Below are positions 1 through 29,751 of a stretch of DNA of 64,000 bases, piece after piece; within the stretch, counting starts at the first letter, position 1; each line of letters begins with the position of its first letter. The translations under genes were made by a program, and so were the position numbers. The DNA comes from Microbulbifer sp. VAAF005 (GTDB lineage Bacteria; Pseudomonadota; Gammaproteobacteria; Pseudomonadales; Cellvibrionaceae). The stretch is taken from positions 1,488,001-1,552,000 of the forward strand of contig NZ_CP120233.1 of NCBI RefSeq assembly GCF_030012985.1, read 5' to 3'. The notes beneath the pieces were generated by a model. The model searched no databases. It was not told the origin of the DNA and was given only the letters and a program-made list of their open reading frames with translations.

Positions 1-1199
1 TCCACCTCTACTTCCTTAAAGAAGCCCAGGCGCTCAAGGCGTACTTTAGATTGCTCAATGCGCGCAGAGGAGGCTGATGCTGACTCCATCTGACGCATCT
101 CACGGCGCAAAACCTCATCTGTAGTACGGGTATTACCTCGGAAATTAATTCGGCGAACATAAGCCCGCTTACCAGGGTTGATAAAGAAGGTAATTTTTAC
201 CGTCTTCTCTTCTTTATTGGGCTCAGGGATACCATTAACCTCAGCAAAGGTGTAACCCTCATTCCCCAGACGCTTGGTAATATAATCCGAGGTCGTTGTC
301 ATGCGAACCTGGGAAAAGGTCTGCCCTTCCCGCACCAACAGTAAACGCTTAACTTCTTCCTCAGGAACTACAGGATCACCAGCCAGATCCACTTCGCTAA
401 TGGTGTAAACATCGCCCTCAAACACATTGACAGTGATAAATACACTCTCTTTGTCGGGGCTTAGGGAAACCTGAGTGGAGTCAATTTTAAAATCCAGGTA
501 CCCACGATCCAAGTAATAGGATTCGAGACGCTCCAGGTCGCCGGTCAATTTCTCTCGGGAATACTTGTCATCACTGCGCAGCCACGACAACCAACCGGTA
601 GTTTGCAGCTCGAAAATCTCTCCAAGCTCTTCATCGGAAAACGCTTTGTTACCGACAATATTGATGTGCTTAATAGCGGCCACTGAGCCTTCATCGACAA
701 TTACGCGAAGCTCAACCTGGTTGCGTGGCAACTCTTTTACTTCAGTTTTAACACTGGCGTCATAGCGTCCCTGGGCAACATATTGGCGTTGCAGCTCCTG
801 GGCCAACCCCTCAAGGGTAGCGCGCTTGAAAATCTGCCCCTCTGAAAGGCCATTCTCCTGCATGCCCTTCAACAGGTCTTCTGTTGCGATCGCCTTATTG
901 CCTGTAATTTCGATCTTGGAAATTGCAGGCCGCTCGCGCACAGTGATAACCAGAACACCATTCTCCTGGCCGATTTGGATATCCTCAAAGTAACCAGTGC
1001 GAAACAGTGCCCGAGTGGCGCTCTGAATTTCCAGAGTCTCCACCTCATCCCCTACTCGCACAGGGAGAGCTGAGAATACGGTACCGGCAGAGACGCGCTG
1101 TAGCCCTTCCACACGGATGTCATCAACTACAAATGACTGTGCTAAAGCACTGAGAGGCAGTGCCAGGCTAAGAGAAGCCGCTTTCAGGAAATGTTTCAT
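1..1199 (-). CDS. bamA: Outer membrane assembly factor BamA, N-terminal part (runs off the left edge)
   Basis: BamA is the central subunit of the BAM complex, which folds and inserts beta-barrel proteins into the outer membrane. Reading on the minus strand from the ATG at 1197-1199, the frame stays open to the window edge, about 399 codons. It starts with a signal peptide (MKHFLKAASLSLALPLSALA) and then runs through the POTRA domains, with typical segments such as DIRVEGLQRVSAGTVF and FRGNTRTTDEVLRRE. The window ends inside POTRA5, so the 16-strand barrel is not seen. The gene lies downstream of rseP and a barrel-less paralog (1249-2538) that is very similar along its whole length. I take this copy to be the functional one because it continues beyond POTRA5, but its barrel must be checked outside the window. 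Confidence 0.93.
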   Translation of the reverse strand, partial: MKHFLKAASLSLALPLSALAQSFVVDDIRVEGLQRVSAGTVFSALPVRVGDEVETLEIQSATRALFRTGYFEDIQIGQENGVLVITVRERPAISKIEITGNKAIATEDLLKGMQENGLSEGQIFKRATLEGLAQELQRQYVAQGRYDASVKTEVKELPRNQVELRVIVDEGSVAAIKHINIVGNKAFSDEELGEIFELQTTGWLSWLRSDDKYSREKLTGDLERLESYYLDRGYLDFKIDSTQVSLSPDKESVFITVNVFEGDVYTISEVDLAGDPVVPEEEVKRLLLVREGQTFSQVRMTTTSDYITKRLGNEGYTFAEVNGIPEPNKEEKTVKITFFINPGKRAYVRRINFRGNTRTTDEVLRREMRQMESASASSARIEQSKVRLERLGFFKEVEV

Positions 1200-1248
1200 C
1201 TACTAATTCCAGGTGTTTTTATTCGCAATCCAGGAGTTACAGCGCCAA

Positions 1249-2538
1249 CTAGCGCCCCGCTCCCCCAGAATCAGAGGGTTGCCCCTCTACCATGTAATCA
1301 ACATCGGGCCGGTCTGAGGTGCCGGACACCTTAGTTGTTTCAACTTTCACTACCTTCAAGTATCCAAGGCGCTCGAGACGCACTTTGGATTGCTCTATAC
1401 GCGCAGTGGAAGCCAAAGCTGACTCCATCTGGCGCAGTTCACGCCGCAAGACTTCATCTGCGGTGCGAGTGTTCCCGCGAAAACTAATACGTCGCACATA
1501 AGTGAGCTTTCCCGGATCAATGAAGAAGGTAATTTTTACTGTACTTTCTTCTTCATTGGCCTCAGGAATACCATTCACTTCAGCAAACGCGTAACCTTTG
1601 TTGCCCAAGCGTTTAGCAATATAGTCTGAAGTGGTCGTTACCCTCGCTTGGGAGAACCGCTGACCTTCTCGCACCAATAGCAGGCGGTTGATTTCCTCCT
1701 CCGCTACTATCGGGTTTCCGGCAATTTCCACCTCACTAACCGTGTAAACACCACCCTCAACCACGTTAATGGTAATGAATACACTCTTCTTGTCCGGCCC
1801 TAGAGATACTTGTGTCGAATCAATCTGAAAATCAAGATATCCGCGATCCAGGTAATAGGACTTTAAGCGCTCCAAATCACCAGTGAGTTTCTCACTAGAG
1901 TACTTATCATCACTGCGCAACCAAGAGAGCCAGCCGGTAGTTTTAAGCTCAAAAATCTCTTCCAGCTCTTTATCAGAAAATGCACGATTTCCTACGACAT
2001 TAATATGTTTAATCGCAGCAACAGCCCCTTCATCAACAGCAACCTGCAGTTCAACCTGGTTGCGCGGCAGTTCCTTGAGCTCCGCTTTAACACTGGCGCC
2101 ATATCGACCCTGCGCCACGTACTGGCGTTCAAACTCCTGGGTCAACCCCCTGAGGGTCGAACGCTTTAGGATCTGGCCTTCGGCGAGACCGTATTCCTTC
2201 ATCGCCTTCAGTAGATCCTCAGTGGCAATCGCCTTGTTCCCGGCTATATCTATCTTTGATATAGCCGGTCGTTCTCTCACGGTAATAACAAGAACGCTGT
2301 TTTCGTGGCCAATCTGAATATCTTCAAAAAAACCAGTGCGAAACAATACTCGGGTCGCATCCTGAATCTCGATAGGCTCAACTTCGTCGCCTACCCGAAT
2401 CGGAAGCGCTGAAAAAACTGTACCTGCAGAAACCCGCTGCAACCCGTCCACTCGGATATCGCTGAGAACGAACGACTGTGCCAAAGCGCTGATAGGCAGC
2501 ACCAAGCCCAGAAAAATCGCTTTCAGCAAATACTTCAT
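1249..2538 (-). CDS. BamA paralog with POTRA domains only, no beta-barrel
   Basis: A 429-residue protein with a signal peptide (MKYLLKAIFLGLVLPISALA) and five consecutive POTRA domains nearly the same as those of the adjacent bamA. Shared segments include GLQRVSAGTVFSALP, TTGWLSWLRSDDKYS and KVRLERLG. It stops right after POTRA5, at VDYMVEGQPSDSGGAGR, where normal BamA (about 800 residues) would begin its barrel. No barrel sequence follows in any frame before the next bamA start at 1199, so this is not a simple frameshift. It lies between rseP and bamA, about 50 bases upstream of bamA, and is probably co-transcribed with it. The open frame over more than 400 codons, with many substitutions that keep the domains intact, suggests it is expressed. 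A periplasmic decoy, chaperone or BamB/BamD-binding role is speculation. It could also be a recent duplication product with no function. Confidence 0.85.
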   Translation of the reverse strand: MKYLLKAIFLGLVLPISALAQSFVLSDIRVDGLQRVSAGTVFSALPIRVGDEVEPIEIQDATRVLFRTGFFEDIQIGHENSVLVITVRERPAISKIDIAGNKAIATEDLLKAMKEYGLAEGQILKRSTLRGLTQEFERQYVAQGRYGASVKAELKELPRNQVELQVAVDEGAVAAIKHINVVGNRAFSDKELEEIFELKTTGWLSWLRSDDKYSSEKLTGDLERLKSYYLDRGYLDFQIDSTQVSLGPDKKSVFITINVVEGGVYTVSEVEIAGNPIVAEEEINRLLLVREGQRFSQARVTTTSDYIAKRLGNKGYAFAEVNGIPEANEEESTVKITFFIDPGKLTYVRRISFRGNTRTADEVLRRELRQMESALASTARIEQSKVRLERLGYLKVVKVETTKVSGTSDRPDVDYMVEGQPSDSGGAGR

Positions 2539-2649: not shown

Positions 2650-4005
2650 CTACAAACGTAAAATATCGTTGTACAGAGCTAGCCCCATAATGCAAAGCAC
2701 CAAGGCCATACCCACTTGCAAACCAATCACCTGCACCCTCTCTGACACAGGGGACCCCTTGATCGCCTCAATACCGTAGTAAAGGAGGTGACCACCATCG
2801 AGTACCGGAATAGGCAACAGATTGAGTACACCAAGGCTAATACTGAGCAACGCCAGCAATGACAGGAAAGACTGCCATCCCGCTTCCGCGGAAGTACCCG
2901 CCACTTTAGCAATGGTAATGGGGCCACTCAAGTTTTTGGTCGAAAGTTGACCAAATAATAGTTTCTTCAAGCTATTCAGGGTAAAGACTGTTTTATCCCA
3001 GGTCTCCTGCAAGCCCTTAACTAAAGCGCCCCCCACCCCATAGTGGTAAATCCGTACTCGATCATCCGGCCAAGTCTCTGATACCGGCTGCACTCCAACC
3101 TGCCCTATGGTTTCACCACTATCCAGCTTAATCTCCGCCGGTGTTACGGACACCGTCAGCGGTTCGCCTCCACGCTCGACAGTGATATCCATTGGAACAC
3201 CAGCGCGGGCTCTCACATAATCGGTCCAGCTTTGAAAAGATGAAAAGTCACGGCCATCGGTCGAGACAATCTTGTCTCCAGCCTTGAGTCCAGCTGAGGC
3301 TGCCGGGCTCCCCTCCACCACATTATGAAGAGTCATACTCACCGGTGGAGTCCACAGCTGCAGACCAATCTCCCCGAGCGGATCGGGAACTTCGCGGCCG
3401 GCAAGCCAGCGATTGATATCCGCCACCATATGGTATTCAAGGTTGGAATCCGGATAGCGCACAGAGAATTCTATGGTGCCACTATCACCCAGGCGGTTTG
3501 CCAGGCGCCAATTGAGGGCCTGCCAAGTGGGGGTAGCCTCACCATCAACAGCAACAATTTCCTGCCCGGACTCAAGGCCTGCCGACGCAGCAATACTCCC
3601 GGGCTCAACGGATTTCACAATAGGAACCGGGCCCGCTGTTCCACCGAGGAACACCGCCCAGAAAAAGACTACCGCCAAAAGAAAGTTAGCGGCAGGACCG
3701 GCAGCGGCAATCGCCATCCTCGCCCATACGCTCTTGCGGTTAAACGCCTGATCCAGCTCTTCAGCCGCTACAGGCCCTTCGCGCTCATCGAGCATTTTTA
3801 CGTAACCGCCGAGGGGGATAGCGGAAATAGTGAATTCGGTACCGTGGCGATCATAGCGGGAGATCAACCGGCGGCCGAACCCCACAGAAAAGCGCAGCAC
3901 CTTAACACCACATAGGCGTGCTACAAGAAAGTGCCCAAACTCGTGGAAAGATACCAGTACACCGAGGGCCACCAAGGCCCAGATTACCGTCTGAATTAGA
4001 TCCAT
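2650..4005 (-). CDS. rseP: Site-2 intramembrane zinc metalloprotease RseP
   Basis: RseP cleaves anti-sigma-E factor RseA within the inner membrane after DegS, and also removes signal-peptide remnants. The 451-residue length fits the family. The zinc motif HEFGH is at residues 21-25 in the first membrane segment, the second metal-ligand motif (LNLLPIPVLDGG) is near residue 400, and two PDZ domains lie between. A terminal membrane segment ends the protein (VGMALVLCIMGLALY). The gene sits in the conserved cdsA-dxr-rseP-bamA order, which links phospholipid, isoprenoid and outer-membrane assembly functions. No unusual residue was seen. Confidence 0.97.
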   Translation of the reverse strand: MDLIQTVIWALVALGVLVSFHEFGHFLVARLCGVKVLRFSVGFGRRLISRYDRHGTEFTISAIPLGGYVKMLDEREGPVAAEELDQAFNRKSVWARMAIAAAGPAANFLLAVVFFWAVFLGGTAGPVPIVKSVEPGSIAASAGLESGQEIVAVDGEATPTWQALNWRLANRLGDSGTIEFSVRYPDSNLEYHMVADINRWLAGREVPDPLGEIGLQLWTPPVSMTLHNVVEGSPAASAGLKAGDKIVSTDGRDFSSFQSWTDYVRARAGVPMDITVERGGEPLTVSVTPAEIKLDSGETIGQVGVQPVSETWPDDRVRIYHYGVGGALVKGLQETWDKTVFTLNSLKKLLFGQLSTKNLSGPITIAKVAGTSAEAGWQSFLSLLALLSISLGVLNLLPIPVLDGGHLLYYGIEAIKGSPVSERVQVIGLQVGMALVLCIMGLALYNDILRL

Positions 4006-23025: not shown

Positions 23026-23376
23026 CCAATACGCGCCCTGGCCCTGCAAACCAGGGCTGCTAAATGCCACCATTCATAATACTGACGAAAAGGTTAAGGC
23101 AAACTTTTGGGTATCCTCAAATATATTTATCAAGAAATATTAAAAGAGATACCTATATAAGTTAACCCACCTCAGGCTGGAAGCTCGAAAAGGGCGAAAG
23201 CTCCAAGTGTACTTGCGAGGTGCCCCAGATTTCCTGGGTGGAAAGGAAAGATTTCAGTAGATTTATCCGCCAAACAAACTGACTATCCCCTCAATATTGC
23301 ATTTCAGCGTATTTATCCCCTCTGATACCGCCCCTTCGGTATGCTCCACCCAACAATAAAAAGGAGCTCACTGACC
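23026..23376 (+). repeat. Repeat copy C: decayed dapE 3' remnant and peptidase leader
   Basis: Like copy B, it opens with a CCCAATACGCGCCCTGGCCC segment matching internal dapE, then joins the dapE tail (from about 23054) and spacer, and ends with CGTATTTATCCCCTCTGATAC and an AAGGAG site before the intact peptidase at 23377. Copies B and C share the internal dapE deletion, so one probably derives from the other. Confidence 0.75.
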
Positions 23377-25452
23377 ATGGATAGGTTTATAAAGTTTATT
23401 GCTGCGGCGATTATTACAAGCCCCGCATTTTCCGCCCCTGAAAATACAAGTGGCCCTTCACCTAATTTTAGCTACGAGGACATCTTCGATCTGGAGTATG
23501 CCAGCGACCCACAGTTTGGCACTAACGATAAAAATATTTATTACGTGCGCAACTCCCTGAACAAAATGGCAGATACCACAAGGGCAAACCTCTGGTATAT
23601 CAGCGATGATGGCAAAGATCACCGCCCCTTAACTTCCGGAGATTTTCACGACCACTCCCCACTTCTATCTCCAGATGGAAAAACTATTGCCTTTATCAGC
23701 GACAGGAGTGGAAAGCCCCAGATACATTTGTTGTGGCTGGACAATGGTAAAAGTGAGCAAATTTCCCATCTACCCAGGACTCCATCAAATATCCAGTGGT
23801 CCCACGATGGTCAGCATATCGCCTTCACCATGTTCGTGCCCGAGAGCAAACCGCTGCCAGTGGAGCTTCCCACACCACCAGAAGGGGGCGAGTGGGAAGA
23901 AACACCTCAGTTTATCGACAAGAGCTTATATCGCATTGAGGGCCAGGGATACTTAGAGCAGGGCAATTCACAGGTTTTCATGATTTCCCATGAAGGAGGT
24001 ACTCCCCGTCAGCTCACCAGTGGGGACTACGAGCACAACAGCCAACTCAGCTGGGGCAAAAATAATAAGGCCATTTACTTTTCAGCGAATCGCCACCCAA
24101 ATCATGAAATTGAACTGCTGGATTCAGAAATTTATAAGGTAAATATCAACGATGGAAATATTGAGCAAGTAACCGAAAGATTTGGCCCCGATTTTCAACC
24201 TCAAATCTCACCCGACGGAAGAAAGCTGGCATATTTAGGCTATGAAGATCAGCGGTTTTCCTACCACCAAAACACTTTGCGAGTGATCGACCTCGCTAGT
24301 GGAAAAAACCAGCTAATAAAAACTGCCAGCGATCGTAGCGTTTCCGATTTTCAGTGGCTCGCTGACAGTAAGCGTATTGCTTACAGCTATGACAATCATG
24401 GCTCAACCAAAATTGCCATTAAGAAAATTGGCGGAAAGGAAACCTTGATAGCGGATGACGCCGGTGGACTGACACTAGGCGCGCCCTATAGTTTTTCAGA
24501 TTTTGCTGTATCCAAACGTGGACACGTAGTTTATACACAAACCACACCTCAAATTCCCGCAGAACTTGCAATTTCTCGTGGCGGCAAGATAAAAACTCTC
24601 ACGGCGATCAACAGTGATTTGATACCTCTACGCAATATGGCCCATGTGGAAGAGATCAACTACAAGTCCAGCTTCGATGCTCGCAATATCCAGGGCTGGA
24701 TAGCCTACCCCCCAAATTTCGACCCCCAAAATAAATACCCCCTGTTACTTGAGATTCACGGTGGCCCACTATCTAACTACGGCCCGCGCTTTTCTGCCGA
24801 AATGCAACTGTTTGCCGCCGCAGGCTATGTCGTGCTCTACACTAACCCTCGCGGCTCTACCAGCTACGGCAGTGAGTTTGCCAACCTGATCCATCACAAC
24901 TTCCCGAGCCAGGATTACGATGACCTAATGGCAGGTGTCGATGCAGTTATCGCCCAAGGCTATATCGATGAGGATCAATTATTTGTCACAGGTGGAAGTG
25001 CCGGCGGCACACTGACGGCCTGGATTATTGGTAAAACTGAACGATTCAGGGCTGCGGTAGTTGTCGCACCGGTAATCAATTGGGAGAGCTTTGTTCTAAC
25101 TGCCGATTACTCCAAAATATTTACTCGCTACTGGTTTTCCGGGATGCCTTGGGAGGCCCCCGAGGAGTATCGACGCCGCTCTCCACTCACATATATTGGC
25201 AATGTCGCGACACCGACCATGCTATTGACTGGAGAAAACGATTATCGCACCCCGATATCTGAGACCGAGCAGTTTTACCAAGCACTAAAGTTAAATGATG
25301 TAGAGGCAGCTATGGTGCGCCTTCCAAACACATCCCATAACTTTTCCGATAGACCCAGCAAGAGAATCTCTAAAGTAGCTTCGACCCTCTACTGGTTTGA
25401 TCAACACAAACCCGATAGAGAAAATGAAAGCGAGGATTTGGCAACCAACTAA
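23377..25452 (+). CDS. S9 family prolyl-oligopeptidase/acyl-aminoacyl peptidase A
   Basis: A 691-residue secreted serine peptidase. A signal peptide (MDRFIKFIAAAIITSPAFSA) leads into a PD40/WD-like beta-propeller (repeats such as LSPDGKTIAFISDRSG) and a C-terminal alpha/beta-hydrolase domain. Catalytic residues: Ser in GGSAGG near residue 541, Asp in TGENDYRTP and His in NTSHNF. S9 enzymes cut short peptides, so a role in peptide scavenging is likely. The start was chosen by the AAGGAG site and signal peptide; a longer frame from 23341 is less likely. It is a tandem paralog of the next gene. Confidence 0.93.
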   Translation: MDRFIKFIAAAIITSPAFSAPENTSGPSPNFSYEDIFDLEYASDPQFGTNDKNIYYVRNSLNKMADTTRANLWYISDDGKDHRPLTSGDFHDHSPLLSPDGKTIAFISDRSGKPQIHLLWLDNGKSEQISHLPRTPSNIQWSHDGQHIAFTMFVPESKPLPVELPTPPEGGEWEETPQFIDKSLYRIEGQGYLEQGNSQVFMISHEGGTPRQLTSGDYEHNSQLSWGKNNKAIYFSANRHPNHEIELLDSEIYKVNINDGNIEQVTERFGPDFQPQISPDGRKLAYLGYEDQRFSYHQNTLRVIDLASGKNQLIKTASDRSVSDFQWLADSKRIAYSYDNHGSTKIAIKKIGGKETLIADDAGGLTLGAPYSFSDFAVSKRGHVVYTQTTPQIPAELAISRGGKIKTLTAINSDLIPLRNMAHVEEINYKSSFDARNIQGWIAYPPNFDPQNKYPLLLEIHGGPLSNYGPRFSAEMQLFAAAGYVVLYTNPRGSTSYGSEFANLIHHNFPSQDYDDLMAGVDAVIAQGYIDEDQLFVTGGSAGGTLTAWIIGKTERFRAAVVVAPVINWESFVLTADYSKIFTRYWFSGMPWEAPEEYRRRSPLTYIGNVATPTMLLTGENDYRTPISETEQFYQALKLNDVEAAMVRLPNTSHNFSDRPSKRISKVASTLYWFDQHKPDRENESEDLATN

Positions 25453-25618
25453 TTCAAAATTTTACAGGTATATTCGGCCAAATAACGGAGTAGCAGGTCA
25501 GCCATCCTGCTGCTCCATCACGGATTATCCCATCGAGCACACCAGTCAACGGATCATTCCCTTTGTCCCCCCTTCCTCAGGTATCCTGTAGGAAGCAAGA
25601 AGGAGGAGCCTAAAGATC

Positions 25619-27673
25619 ATGAACCGGCTAATAAAAATTGTCGCAGCGATGTTTATCGCCAGCCCTGCGCTCGCTGATAACCAACTACCCAATTTTAGTT
25701 ACGAGGATGTATTTAACCTCGAATACGCGAGTAGCCCTCAGTTCAGCAGTGACGGGAAAAGTATTTATTACGTCCGCAACTCAATGAACAAAATGAAAGA
25801 CGGCAAGCGCGCGAACCTTTGGCGTATCGGTACCGATGGCAAAGATCACCGCCCTCTGACCTCTGGAGACTACTCCGATTACTCCCCACAGCTATCCCCA
25901 GACGGGAAGACCATCGCTTTTATCAGCACCCGCAGTGGCAGCCCGCAGATCCACCTGCTGTGGTTAGATAATGGCCAAAATCTGCAGATTACTCACCTGC
26001 CAAAATCCCCCTCCAATATCCAGTGGTCACGGGATGGTAAGCAAATAGCTTTCACTATGTTCGTACCGGAAAGCAAACCTCTGCCAGTACAGCTCCCCAG
26101 TGCCCCGGAAGGCGCAGAGTGGGCTAAGCCACCACAGTTTATCGACAGCAGCATTTATCGTTCAGATGGCATGGGCTATTTAAAGCAGGGGCATGTACAG
26201 GTTTTTGTGATCCCTCGAGAGGGCGGTACCCCTCGACAGCTTACCGAAGGCGAGTACGATCACCACAGCAGTCTCGCCTGGAGTAAAAATAACGATGCAA
26301 TTTACTTCTCAGCCAATCGTCATCCCGATCACGAAATCGAGCTGATGAACTCGGAAATTTACAAGGTGAGCCTACAAAACGGCAATATCGAGCAAATTAC
26401 CGAACGTTATGGTCCCGACCATCACCCGCAGATGTCTCCAGATGGTACGAAGCTGGCCTATTTAGGCTTTGAGGATCAAAAGCTCGGATACCAACAACAT
26501 ACTCTGCGCGTCCTGGATCTCAATAGCGGGAAGTACCGTAAAATAAAAACTGCCAAGGATCGCAGCATCTCCAACTTCCACTGGCTAGACGATAGCAAGC
26601 GAATTGCCTATAGCTACGACGATCACGGCTCCACCAAAATAGCCATCAAGAAAATTGGTTCCAGCGAAACCCTGATGGCCAGCAACGCTGGAGGGCTTTC
26701 GCTGGGACGCCCTTACTCCGGTGCCAATTTTGCAGTTTCCAAACGCGGGGACATCGCCTACACACAAACAACCCCTCAGAACCCAGCCGAACTGGCTCTA
26801 GCTCGCAACGGCAAAACCCAGGCACTCACCAAGCTCAATGAAGACCTGATGCCACTGCGCGAGATGGCAGACGTTGAGGAGATCAACTACAAATCGAGCT
26901 TTGACGGCCGAGATATTCAGGGCTGGGTCGCTTACCCTCCCAATTTCGACCCCAAGATGAAGTATCCCCTCTTATTGGAAATTCACGGTGGTCCCTTCTC
27001 TAATTACGGTCCCAGATTTTCCGCCGAAGTCCAGTTATTTGCCGCTGCTGGTTACGTTGTTCTATACACGAACCCCCGAGGCTCCACCGGCTACGGCCAT
27101 GAATTTGCCAACTTAATTCACCATAACTACCCAAGCCAGGATTATGACGACCTGATTTCTGGCGTCGATGCAGTAATTGCTCAAGGTTATATTGATGAAG
27201 AGCAGCTTTTTGTTACCGGTGGCAGTGGTGGGGGTACACTGACAGCCTGGATTATTGGCAAAACCGATCGCTTCAGAGCTGCTGTTGTTGCCAAGCCTGT
27301 CATCAACTGGGAGAGCTTCGTTTTAACTGCTGATTATTCGAGGTTTTTTACCAGCTATTGGTTCTCAGGGATGCCCTGGGAGAAACCTGAGGAATACCGC
27401 CGTCGCTCACCGCTCACCTATGTCGGAAACGTTACCACTCCCACTATGCTCTTAACCGGGGAAGAGGATTACCGCACACCGATGTCAGAAACGGAACAGT
27501 TTTATCAAGCACTAAAACTCAATGATGTTGATGCTGCCATGGTTCGCATTCCTGGGGCATCTCACAGTATCGCTGCCAGGCCAAGTCAATTAGTAGCAAA
27601 GGTTGCCTCTATTCTTTATTGGTTTGATCAACACAAACCCAACCAAGAAAGCCAAGACCTTGTAGCAAGATAA
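25619..27673 (+). CDS. S9 family prolyl-oligopeptidase/acyl-aminoacyl peptidase B
   Basis: A 684-residue secreted paralog of the preceding gene, similar along its whole length. It starts MNRLIKIVAAMFIASPALAD after an AAGGAGGAG site. It has the same PD40 propeller and hydrolase domain, with Ser in GGSGGG near residue 536, Asp in TGEEDYRTP and His in GASHSI. The propeller entry and HGGPFSNYGPRFSAEVQLF block are well kept. The substitution of Ala by Gly after the catalytic Ser may change specificity slightly. The repeat found upstream of gene A was not seen here. It ends with a strong terminator at 27704. Confidence 0.93.
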   Translation: MNRLIKIVAAMFIASPALADNQLPNFSYEDVFNLEYASSPQFSSDGKSIYYVRNSMNKMKDGKRANLWRIGTDGKDHRPLTSGDYSDYSPQLSPDGKTIAFISTRSGSPQIHLLWLDNGQNLQITHLPKSPSNIQWSRDGKQIAFTMFVPESKPLPVQLPSAPEGAEWAKPPQFIDSSIYRSDGMGYLKQGHVQVFVIPREGGTPRQLTEGEYDHHSSLAWSKNNDAIYFSANRHPDHEIELMNSEIYKVSLQNGNIEQITERYGPDHHPQMSPDGTKLAYLGFEDQKLGYQQHTLRVLDLNSGKYRKIKTAKDRSISNFHWLDDSKRIAYSYDDHGSTKIAIKKIGSSETLMASNAGGLSLGRPYSGANFAVSKRGDIAYTQTTPQNPAELALARNGKTQALTKLNEDLMPLREMADVEEINYKSSFDGRDIQGWVAYPPNFDPKMKYPLLLEIHGGPFSNYGPRFSAEVQLFAAAGYVVLYTNPRGSTGYGHEFANLIHHNYPSQDYDDLISGVDAVIAQGYIDEEQLFVTGGSGGGTLTAWIIGKTDRFRAAVVAKPVINWESFVLTADYSRFFTSYWFSGMPWEKPEEYRRRSPLTYVGNVTTPTMLLTGEEDYRTPMSETEQFYQALKLNDVDAAMVRIPGASHSIAARPSQLVAKVASILYWFDQHKPNQESQDLVAR

Positions 27674-27703
27674 ATAAACATTCAATTTATTATATTTTGA
27701 CAC

Positions 27704-27736
27704 TTTCCCAGTGGGCTCTTTGAGCCCACTGGGAAA
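27704..27736 (+). terminator. Intrinsic terminator after peptidase B
   Basis: A perfect 15-base stem TTTCCCAGTGGGCTC/GAGCCCACTGGGAAA with a TTT loop, followed by TCTTGTT. It is the strongest hairpin in the accessory region. Confidence 0.85.
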
Positions 27737-27796
27737 TCTTGTTCCTAGCGCCATTTGTACCGCATAATCTCTGAAACAACAGACATGGACGAGATC

Positions 27797-29751
27797 ATGC
27801 GCAAACTAATATTTCTATTATTTCTCTGGCCCACCTTTGTCTTCTCCAGCCAAATCCCCCTGAATGACTTGATACGTCATGCTGATATACAAGAAGTTAA
27901 AATCTCACCAACTGGTACGCATATAGCAATTCGAAAGCTCCATGAGGGTGAGAGGGTTCTCATTTTTATGTCCTTGGAAACAAGGAAAGTTACAGGTCTT
28001 TTACGTTTTCGCGGTGAGGAAGAGGTAGGAGATTTTTTCTGGGCCAACCATGAACGGGTTGTTGCTGAGATAGTATCCCGGCAAACCTCACTGGAAACAC
28101 CTGTCACATATGGTTCGCTCTATGCGATCAATTACGACAATACAAAAGCCAAAAATATTTTTGGCCACTCAAGTGGGGAGATGCAAACTGGCACTCGTTT
28201 CAAAAAAGCTAAAGCCACATATGCACACGCTGACTTGGTGGACCCTCTAATCCATAAAGATAAAAAAATATTGATATCCACTCGTCCATGGGCTCAAAAC
28301 CAAGAAGCTATTGGGGAGATTTTAGAGCTGGATATCTACAGTGGTATCAAGAAAAAAGTGGCTAAGCTTCCAGAGGTTGACGGAGTTGTCCACACAGATA
28401 ATAAAGGTAATATAGCATTTGCCACAGGGGTAAATGAAGAGAGCTATAAGCAACTTTATCAAATGACTGAAAATGGCTGGAAATTAGTAGACCAACCTGT
28501 ATTAAAAAATGGCACCCCTGTTGGCTCAGACCCAAAAACCGGAGAGTTCTATCTAACGATTTATCACAATGACAATACTGAACAACTTATTAAAGTAGAT
28601 ACCAATTCAATGGAATACGAATCCGTATTCCAACATGAAATTTCAGATATCGAAGGTATTATTTACAATCCAAAAGATCTAAAACCACTCGGAGTGTATC
28701 TTTACCCAGACTACCCTGAGGAATATTTCTTTGATGATGGCGAAGGATTTTCCGCATATTTCCGCGGGTTAAAAAAGGCCTTTGATGGGTACAATCTTCT
28801 ATTTACAAGCTTTACAACTGATGGTTCCTTGGGGATATTAAAGGTATATGGCGATAGACTTCCCGGAGACTATTTCTTAGTAAATACTAAAACCAAAAAA
28901 GTTGACTTCCTAATTTCCTCATCAGAGTGGCTAGACCCCCAAGCACTCAACCCAATGGTTGCAGATTCATTTATAACCGAAGACAAGCTTCGCATTGGCA
29001 CTTACTTAACATTCCCCAAAAACAAAAAAGAAAATCTGCCGATGGTCGTCATTCCTCACGGAGGGCCCCATTCTCGTGATTATTGGACCTACAATCAAAC
29101 CGCTCAAATATTATCCATGAACGGTTACTTGGTTCTGCAAATGAATTTTCGTGGCTCAACGGGATACGGTGGAGGGTTCTATACCGCTGGAGAAAAGGAA
29201 TGGGGCAATAAGATTCAACAAGATATTGCCGACTCAGTTAAATGGGCTATAGAAAAAGGTTACGCAGATCCTGAGCGTATATGTATTTATGGTGCAAGCT
29301 TTGGTGGTTACTCGGCACTTATGAATCCTATTCGCCACCCCAACCTGTACAAGTGTGCGGCAGGTTATGTTGGTATATATAACTTAGAAATGATGTATAC
29401 AAAAGGAGATATCAAGCAGAGGGATCGCGGAATTGCATACTTAAACCGAGAACTCAGCCGGGATGAAAACTTCCTCAACGAGAACTCCCCCTTTATAGCT
29501 TAGAAAAGCTCAATTTGCCGATATTTTTGATTCATGGCGAAGAAGACCAACGGGCTCCCTTTGAACACGCTAAAGCCATGGTGAAAGAGTTCAAAAAAAT
29601 GAACAAGCCTGTTAAAACTCTGTTTGTAAAAAGAGAAGGGCACGGGTTCTATACTGAAGAAAATAATATGAAACTCTACACGGAACTTCTTGAGTTTTTA
29701 GACGAGCATATAGGTATCGGGGCAGCCGAAAAGCAGCCTAGCAGAGGATAG
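27797..29751 (+). CDS. S9 family peptidase C, with a one-base frameshift
   Basis: A secreted S9C-type peptidase, less like A and B. It starts MRKLIFLLFLWPTFVFSSQ, a signal peptide. The hydrolase domain has HGGPHSRDYW, RGSTGYGGGF and the catalytic Ser in GASFGG. The first frame ends at NSPFIA; one more C in the five-C run near 29487-29491 gives NSPLYSLEKLNLPIFLIHG and then GEEDQRAPFEHAKAM (Asp) and REGHGFY (His). The repaired length is 651 residues. Without the repair the Asp and His of the catalytic triad would be lost. The break may be a base-calling error, as with four other genes here. Confidence 0.85.

Follow-up and report, generated by a model that had tools for sequence, protein, structure and literature searches.

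The BamA/Omp85 superfamily counts a membrane barrel among its defining features, and in the literature drawn on here, the known BamA paralogues are either full-length or able to replace BamA. BamK of Klebsiella and the second BamA of Pseudomonas each accompany the essential gene as an additional BamA-derived one (PMC13059784; PMC4104836), with BamK capable of replacing BamA (PMC13059784) and the Pseudomonas copies compared as full-length sequences (PMC4104836). An extra BamA-derived gene of this kind is also present in a 64,000-nucleotide stretch of the Microbulbifer sp. VAAF005 genome (the window; NZ_CP120233.1, positions 1,488,001 to 1,552,000), where an open reading frame of 429 codons, here called P, lies on the minus strand at 1249-2538 between rseP and bamA. 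P shares POTRA domains and bamA descent with the superfamily but lacks the barrel, which sets it apart from the Pseudomonas copies and from a full-length, BamA-replacing paralogue of the BamK type.

Two other comparisons place P more closely. The noNterm Omp85 proteins consist of a barrel without POTRAs (PMC4104836), so that P is the opposite half, both being reduced BamA-type architectures. Soluble BamA POTRA constructs covering E. coli residues 21-424 (PMC5692476) have practically the same boundaries as mature P; however, these are man-made, whereas P is a natural gene kept by selection. In the literature searched, with most subscription journals outside its coverage, we found no description of a POTRA-only or barrel-less BamA protein, which bears out the first-pass annotation of this DNA in calling it not a described system, and by title none of the literature on Microbulbifer and BamA concerned a POTRA-only copy. 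Relative to the paralogues described in this literature, a natural POTRA-only copy would be new.

Substrate hand-over by POTRAs and their barrel-independent contacts are mostly investigated using artificial fragments and deletions. Here, BamA has been severed naturally at the border between POTRAs and barrel and the soluble half kept under selection in several marine Microbulbifer, with non-carrier relatives serving as controls, and comparing the constraint on free and barrel-bound POTRAs can separate docking residues from barrel-coupling residues. Genes of this type are easily overlooked because two of their five database records carry the plain name BamA.

A POTRA-only gene under selective constraint

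The product of P comprises a signal peptide followed by five POTRA domains, without a barrel, as first proposed from the bare sequence and now confirmed by the open reading frame, Pfam and alignment to E. coli BamA; a structure model likewise places the POTRA domains at the N-terminus. The C-terminal 16-stranded barrel is absent, there being no PF01103 match, the homology to bamA ending at residue 424 and the stop following residue 429. Judging from the 80% identity, the leader junction described below and the gene tree, descent of P from bamA is clear.

Among the seven copies of P that we found, the ratio of nonsynonymous to synonymous substitution rates (dN/dS) was 0.048-0.090 in all 21 pairs, and for the matching BamA POTRAs it was 0.007-0.034 in the 18 pairs with computable dS. 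A purpose-written codon model (GY94-type with F3x4 on a fixed tree, rather than a standard package), which agrees with the pairwise counts, gave a dN/dS (omega) of 0.089 for P, 0.0205 for BamA and 0.126 for the branch joining them (18 sequences: seven P and 11 BamA). Fixing omega of P at 1 worsened twice the log-likelihood difference (2dlnL) by 986, and equating it with that of BamA by 119. On the terminal branches of the two shortened copies, omega was 0.10 and a value of 1 was again rejected (2dlnL 189.5). These comparisons strongly support that P is kept by selection and is not decaying, in agreement with the earlier proposal, dN/dS not being near 1.

Relaxed constraint on the BamA POTRAs of carriers was looked for with the codon model and not found; the opposite was seen, with omega 0.012 in carriers vs 0.026 on other branches (2dlnL 12.9), with the caveat that the carrier branches are the shallow ones. 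Since the carrier BamA POTRAs are not relaxed, P would add to BamA, rather than having replaced its POTRAs or unloaded it.

Distribution of P

P was found in 7 of 48 Microbulbifer genomes, the source included, always directly before bamA. Five copies have 429 amino acids (G000, G010, G003, G037, G014) and two have 409 (G030, G043), the earlier stop in the latter being the only frame break among the seven. Two of the 48 genomes are less than 90% complete (G007, G047), and P could be hidden there. The source genome is a single contig of 5,397,440 bases in which P matches two places, itself and the adjacent bamA at 80%.

A protein search scored 8000 candidates and listed the best 120 of 1174, the top five being Microbulbifer-type P. 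The database contributes two further alleles, P0001 and P0004; P0002, P0003 and P0005 resemble the copies of G003, G037 and G030 over the first 30 residues. Ten other proteins among the matches listed were examined, of which eight continue into the barrel and two stop at the POTRA-barrel border, namely P0107 (417 amino acids, in a record named partial) and P0083 (422 amino acids, 57% identity, outside the genus, contig 25,916). P0083 may be either a truncated fragment or a gene similar to P.

The wider survey covered 96 relatives, 342 genomes of the order and 150 of the class, in overlapping sets that include the source genome. No other POTRA-only bamA neighbour appeared among the matches listed from the order and class genomes, and four order genomes, two class genomes and one relative (G054) were without any match. 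Inspection outside the genus took in the 11 order genomes that gave multiple matches and two with a short frame; the six multi-match class genomes were left out. The inspected genomes showed a bamA that was split or at a contig end (G110, G124, G136, G184, G189, G205), a second full-length BamA (G246, G388), or a weak match (E 4e-4 to 6e-4) in a different frame of 591-657 amino acids (G101, G107, G125). The relative G074 has a 449-amino-acid frame, with the match stopping 74 bases short of the end of a 4169-base contig. Matches also occurred in 8 phage and 72 plasmid records, all below 60% identity, and the named features among the 28 listed were BamA/YaeT, the others of these bearing no name.

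The view that P is an assembly artefact is hardly credible, given the single-contig genome, the 80% identity between the copies and the same gene in the genomes of six other species; the copy is real and recurrent, rather than confined to one assembly as the first-pass annotation had allowed. A non-functional leftover of duplication might be suggested by the earlier stop in two species and by the failure to find P in most of the genus, but is very improbable: the frames are otherwise intact, and, barring an error in the alignment or gene tree, the codon models refute it, both for P as a whole and on the two branches leading to the shortened copies. A pseudogene of bamA was likewise rejected, neutral evolution being incompatible with the omega of P and its 2dlnL.

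Layout of P and its neighbourhood

The features of the locus, all on the minus strand, are as follows.

1249..2538, minus: P, POTRA-only BamA paralogue, 429 amino acids (open reading frame list, Pfam POTRA matches, orthologues, omega as above)
2479..2538, minus: predicted signal peptide, residues 1-20, cut after ALA (sequence; boundary by eye)
2269..2478, minus: POTRA1, residues 21-90 (alignment to E. coli BamA, structure model; no Pfam stretch of its own)
2023..2268, minus: POTRA2, residues 91-172 (alignment to E. coli BamA, structure model)
1753..2022, minus: POTRA3, residues 173-262 (lowest dN/dS among the five domains)
1900..1941, minus: POTRA3 loop TTGWLSWLR.DDKY, residues 200-213 (counterpart of the micelle-dipping E. 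coli loop)
1801..1824, minus: POTRA3 edge IDSTQVSL, residues 239-246 (counterpart of the BamB-facing E. coli strand)
1510..1752, minus: POTRA4, residues 263-343 (alignment to E. coli BamA, structure model)
1276..1509, minus: POTRA5, residues 344-421, final strand 407-419 (structure model, conservation)
1249..1266, minus: final five codons (GGAGR) and stop, from the duplicated bamA 5' leader and not from bamA coding DNA
1200..1248, minus: 49-nucleotide spacer, the second copy of the bamA leader
3..1199, minus: bamA, first 399 of 850 codons, the rest beyond the window
2650..4005, minus: rseP, same-strand upstream neighbour of P (HEFGH motif by eye, position beside dxr)

The gene order, with names assigned by eye from sequence and position, is dxr-rseP-P-bamA-skp-like-lpxD-fabZ-lpxA-lpxB, and rseP, P, bamA, the skp-like gene and lpxD all lie on the same strand, P being separated from rseP by 111 nucleotides and from bamA by 49. 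All seven copies have a signal peptide, with a cut site predicted by eye at ALA-Q in five, ALA-R in one and AMA-Q in one. None of the seven has a cysteine at this site by eye, so P does not carry the lipoprotein signal of BamB-E type accessory subunits. Genes for BamB and BamD were found in the source genome.

Conserved parts of P

Constraint is uneven along P, with a dN/dS of 0.096 in POTRA1, 0.068 in POTRA2, 0.048 in POTRA3, 0.069 in POTRA4 and 0.091 in POTRA5, the signal peptide evolving fastest (0.32). Positions invariant in 17 BamA sequences are changed in P at 17/58, 17/66, 12/73, 18/59 and 18/66 sites in POTRA1 to POTRA5, respectively, or 16% in POTRA3 vs 26-31% in the other domains. 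The edge IDSTQVSL is identical in all seven genome copies, with one change in the database allele P0001; in E. coli, D241, V245 and L247 are the residues which we take to have a role with BamB. Residue E372 of P, equivalent to E. coli E373, presumably involved with BamD, is kept in seven of seven copies. In the loop TTGWLSWLR.DDKY, whose E. coli counterpart dips into the micelle (PMC5056442), the seven copies vary at position 209 only.

Five differences between P and BamA are fixed (314, 375, 410, 414 and 419), and four of them (375, 410, 414, 419) fall in POTRA5, those at 410, 414 and 419 resting on five copies since these positions are absent from both short forms. The 409-residue form, found in two species, stops before residue 410 and so is missing the bulk of the final POTRA5 strand (407-419 in the model). 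As these short copies are still constrained, the end nearest the barrel seems to be the dispensable portion of P.

A candidate accessory of the BAM complex

The reading that we favour, at a probability of roughly 45%, is that P is an exported, soluble periplasmic accessory of the barrel assembly machinery (BAM), docking through POTRA3 and BamB and offering extra sites for substrates or chaperones. Carrying a signal peptide, P would be exported to the periplasm, and, given the gene order, it is probably made with BamA from one operon. Like the POTRA3 of BamA, that of P might dock on BamB and on the outer membrane at its inner face, and POTRA1-2 could give unfolded outer-membrane proteins or chaperones one more place to bind beside BamA. 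Lacking a barrel, P can neither reside in the membrane nor carry out insertion itself. The first-pass annotation had proposed that a soluble POTRA array binds Bam lipoproteins or substrates and tunes assembly, which is plausible and fits the conservation pattern. More tentatively, a detached POTRA array may serve BAM in part of Microbulbifer from the same operon, spreading from one species to another through recombination at the rseP-bamA site and uncoupling the docking of substrates or chaperones from the barrel.

Several observations weigh against an accessory of this kind. P was not found in 41 of the 48 genus genomes, so it is not generally needed. POTRA3 is conserved in BamA too, and its conservation in P could reflect folding. 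In E. coli, BamB binding needs POTRA2 to POTRA5 (PMC3871556), and a copy with a damaged POTRA5 might therefore not hold BamB. In BamA-driven folding of OmpA in vitro, the greatest effect needs the barrel with attached POTRAs (PMC5692476). Furthermore, a scan of 1100-2900 for sigma-70-like promoters gave 0 sites compared with 1.9 in shuffles, a result of little weight either way.

In the main rival reading, the soluble POTRAs of P would act as a competitive regulator that titrates BamD, BamB or chaperones off BamA and damps insertion, for example under envelope stress. The retention of the E373 equivalent in every genome copy, presumably a BamD contact, and of the BamB-facing residues fits such a role, and BamA fragments can act in this way, as a BamD-competing peptide from the E. 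coli BamA barrel is toxic and blocks the assembly of BamA (PMC7316895). However, BamD-binding POTRA5 holds most of the fixed changes and has mostly lost its last strand in two species; that strand loss under continued constraint suggests that selection is not maintaining coupling to the barrel or to BamD, which makes simple BamD titration less likely. Constant co-production with BamA would also be costly for a pure inhibitor, and we consider this regulator unlikely. An independent periplasmic chaperone or scaffold, binding unfolded outer-membrane proteins or another envelope partner off BAM, appears quite unlikely, even though E. coli POTRAs bind unfolded substrate (PMC3871556), a skp-like gene (named by eye) follows bamA in the same gene row, and P is constrained about four times more loosely than BamA, because the best-kept stretches of P are the BAM-contact stretches of POTRA3.

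Origin and probable exchange of P

All copies of P cluster apart from all BamA with support 100 and share one junction, in which bamA up to codon 424 is fused to the bamA 5' leader. This shared junction points to a single partial tandem duplication comprising the leader and bamA codons 1-424; on this sequence evidence, P arose once, in Microbulbifer. When fixed trees were compared, the approximately unbiased (AU) test rejected independent duplications (T6, T7, T9), with p <=0.0012 in the plain and partitioned sets and <=0.0017 in the protein and codon-position 1+2 sets. The milder Shimodaira-Hasegawa (SH) test rejected T6 in the plain and partitioned sets (p 0.0102-0.0108) but not in the protein and position 1+2 sets (0.052 and 0.122), and did not reject T9 in any set (p 0.10-0.14).

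The history of P within the genus departs from that of the species. In a species tree from six flanking gene segments, the non-carriers G004, G009 and G044/G006 fall among carriers; the P copies of G000/G010 and of G003/G037/G014 form sister groups, though the species are not sisters. A P tree following the species tree (T2), for which the one placement tried was next to the BamA clade of 11 species, was rejected by AU in eight of eight sets (p <=0.0018), with a protein-set SH value of 0.054. Because the gene tree departs from the species tree, lineages have probably exchanged P. The alternatives are transfer of P by recombination and three losses combined with bamA conversion in G030/G043, the former being favoured without certainty. 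Low synonymous divergence at the rseP end between carriers was considered as a sign of a transferred flank and rejected, since non-carrier pairs show the same.

When every nucleotide position was used, an origin of P from bamA of the G030/G043 lineage (T4) scored best (AU 0.98; partitioned 0.97), as it did without the first 60 codons and in two of the three thirds. The first third favoured T5 (T4 p 0.25), which was also unrejected in the partitioned set (0.0504). In the protein set, T1, T4, T5 and T8 are indistinguishable, and codon positions 1+2 leave T1 and T8 at p 0.10. The GC content at third codon positions of P is low, similar to G030_B and G000_B, and T4 is therefore a candidate. Possibly, P was converted by bamA at its 5' end in G030/G043 (85-88% in the first two alignment windows), which could pull the root.

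Upstream of P, the leader is clearly a bamA leader in G030 and G043 (shuffle p 0.000), whereas in the five 429-residue carriers its resemblance to the bamA leader of the same genome is weak or lacking (p 0.26, 0.03, 0.07, 0.04 and 0.008), so that the duplicated leader on the P side would have decayed or been replaced there. Immediately before the bamA start (1200-1248 in the window), TTGCGAATAAAA followed by CTCGGAATTAGTAG is nearly letter-identical in most of 17 Microbulbifer loci (G022 and G005 depart), and the same stretch has drifted before P in the 429-residue carriers. Its retention before bamA and drift before P hint that the two genes are translated differently.

Other observations

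Near the 3' end of rseP, a 150-nucleotide stretch (2806-2955) has a synonymous divergence of 0.20-0.48 in 11 of 11 group comparisons, carriers and non-carriers included; the next 150 nucleotides are low in 9 of 11 (0.36-0.50) but reach 0.65-0.69 vs G044/G006. This low-divergence stretch may mark a regulatory element.

Elsewhere in the window, three consecutive open reading frames of the S9 peptidase family (703, 684 and 582 amino acids) occupy 23341-29503 on the plus strand. In the third, the domain matches only 112 of 213 profile positions, and it may be another C-terminally cut duplicate.

Among the surveyed genomes, the BamA match is broken into two frames in G124 (a one-contig genome), G110 and G205, and lies in an open frame of only 468 amino acids in G509 (one contig); these may stem from errors in sequencing or be genuine interruptions of a presumably essential gene. 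Two full-length BamA genes per genome occur in G246 (813 and 816 amino acids) and G388 (open frames of 891 and 902 amino acids).
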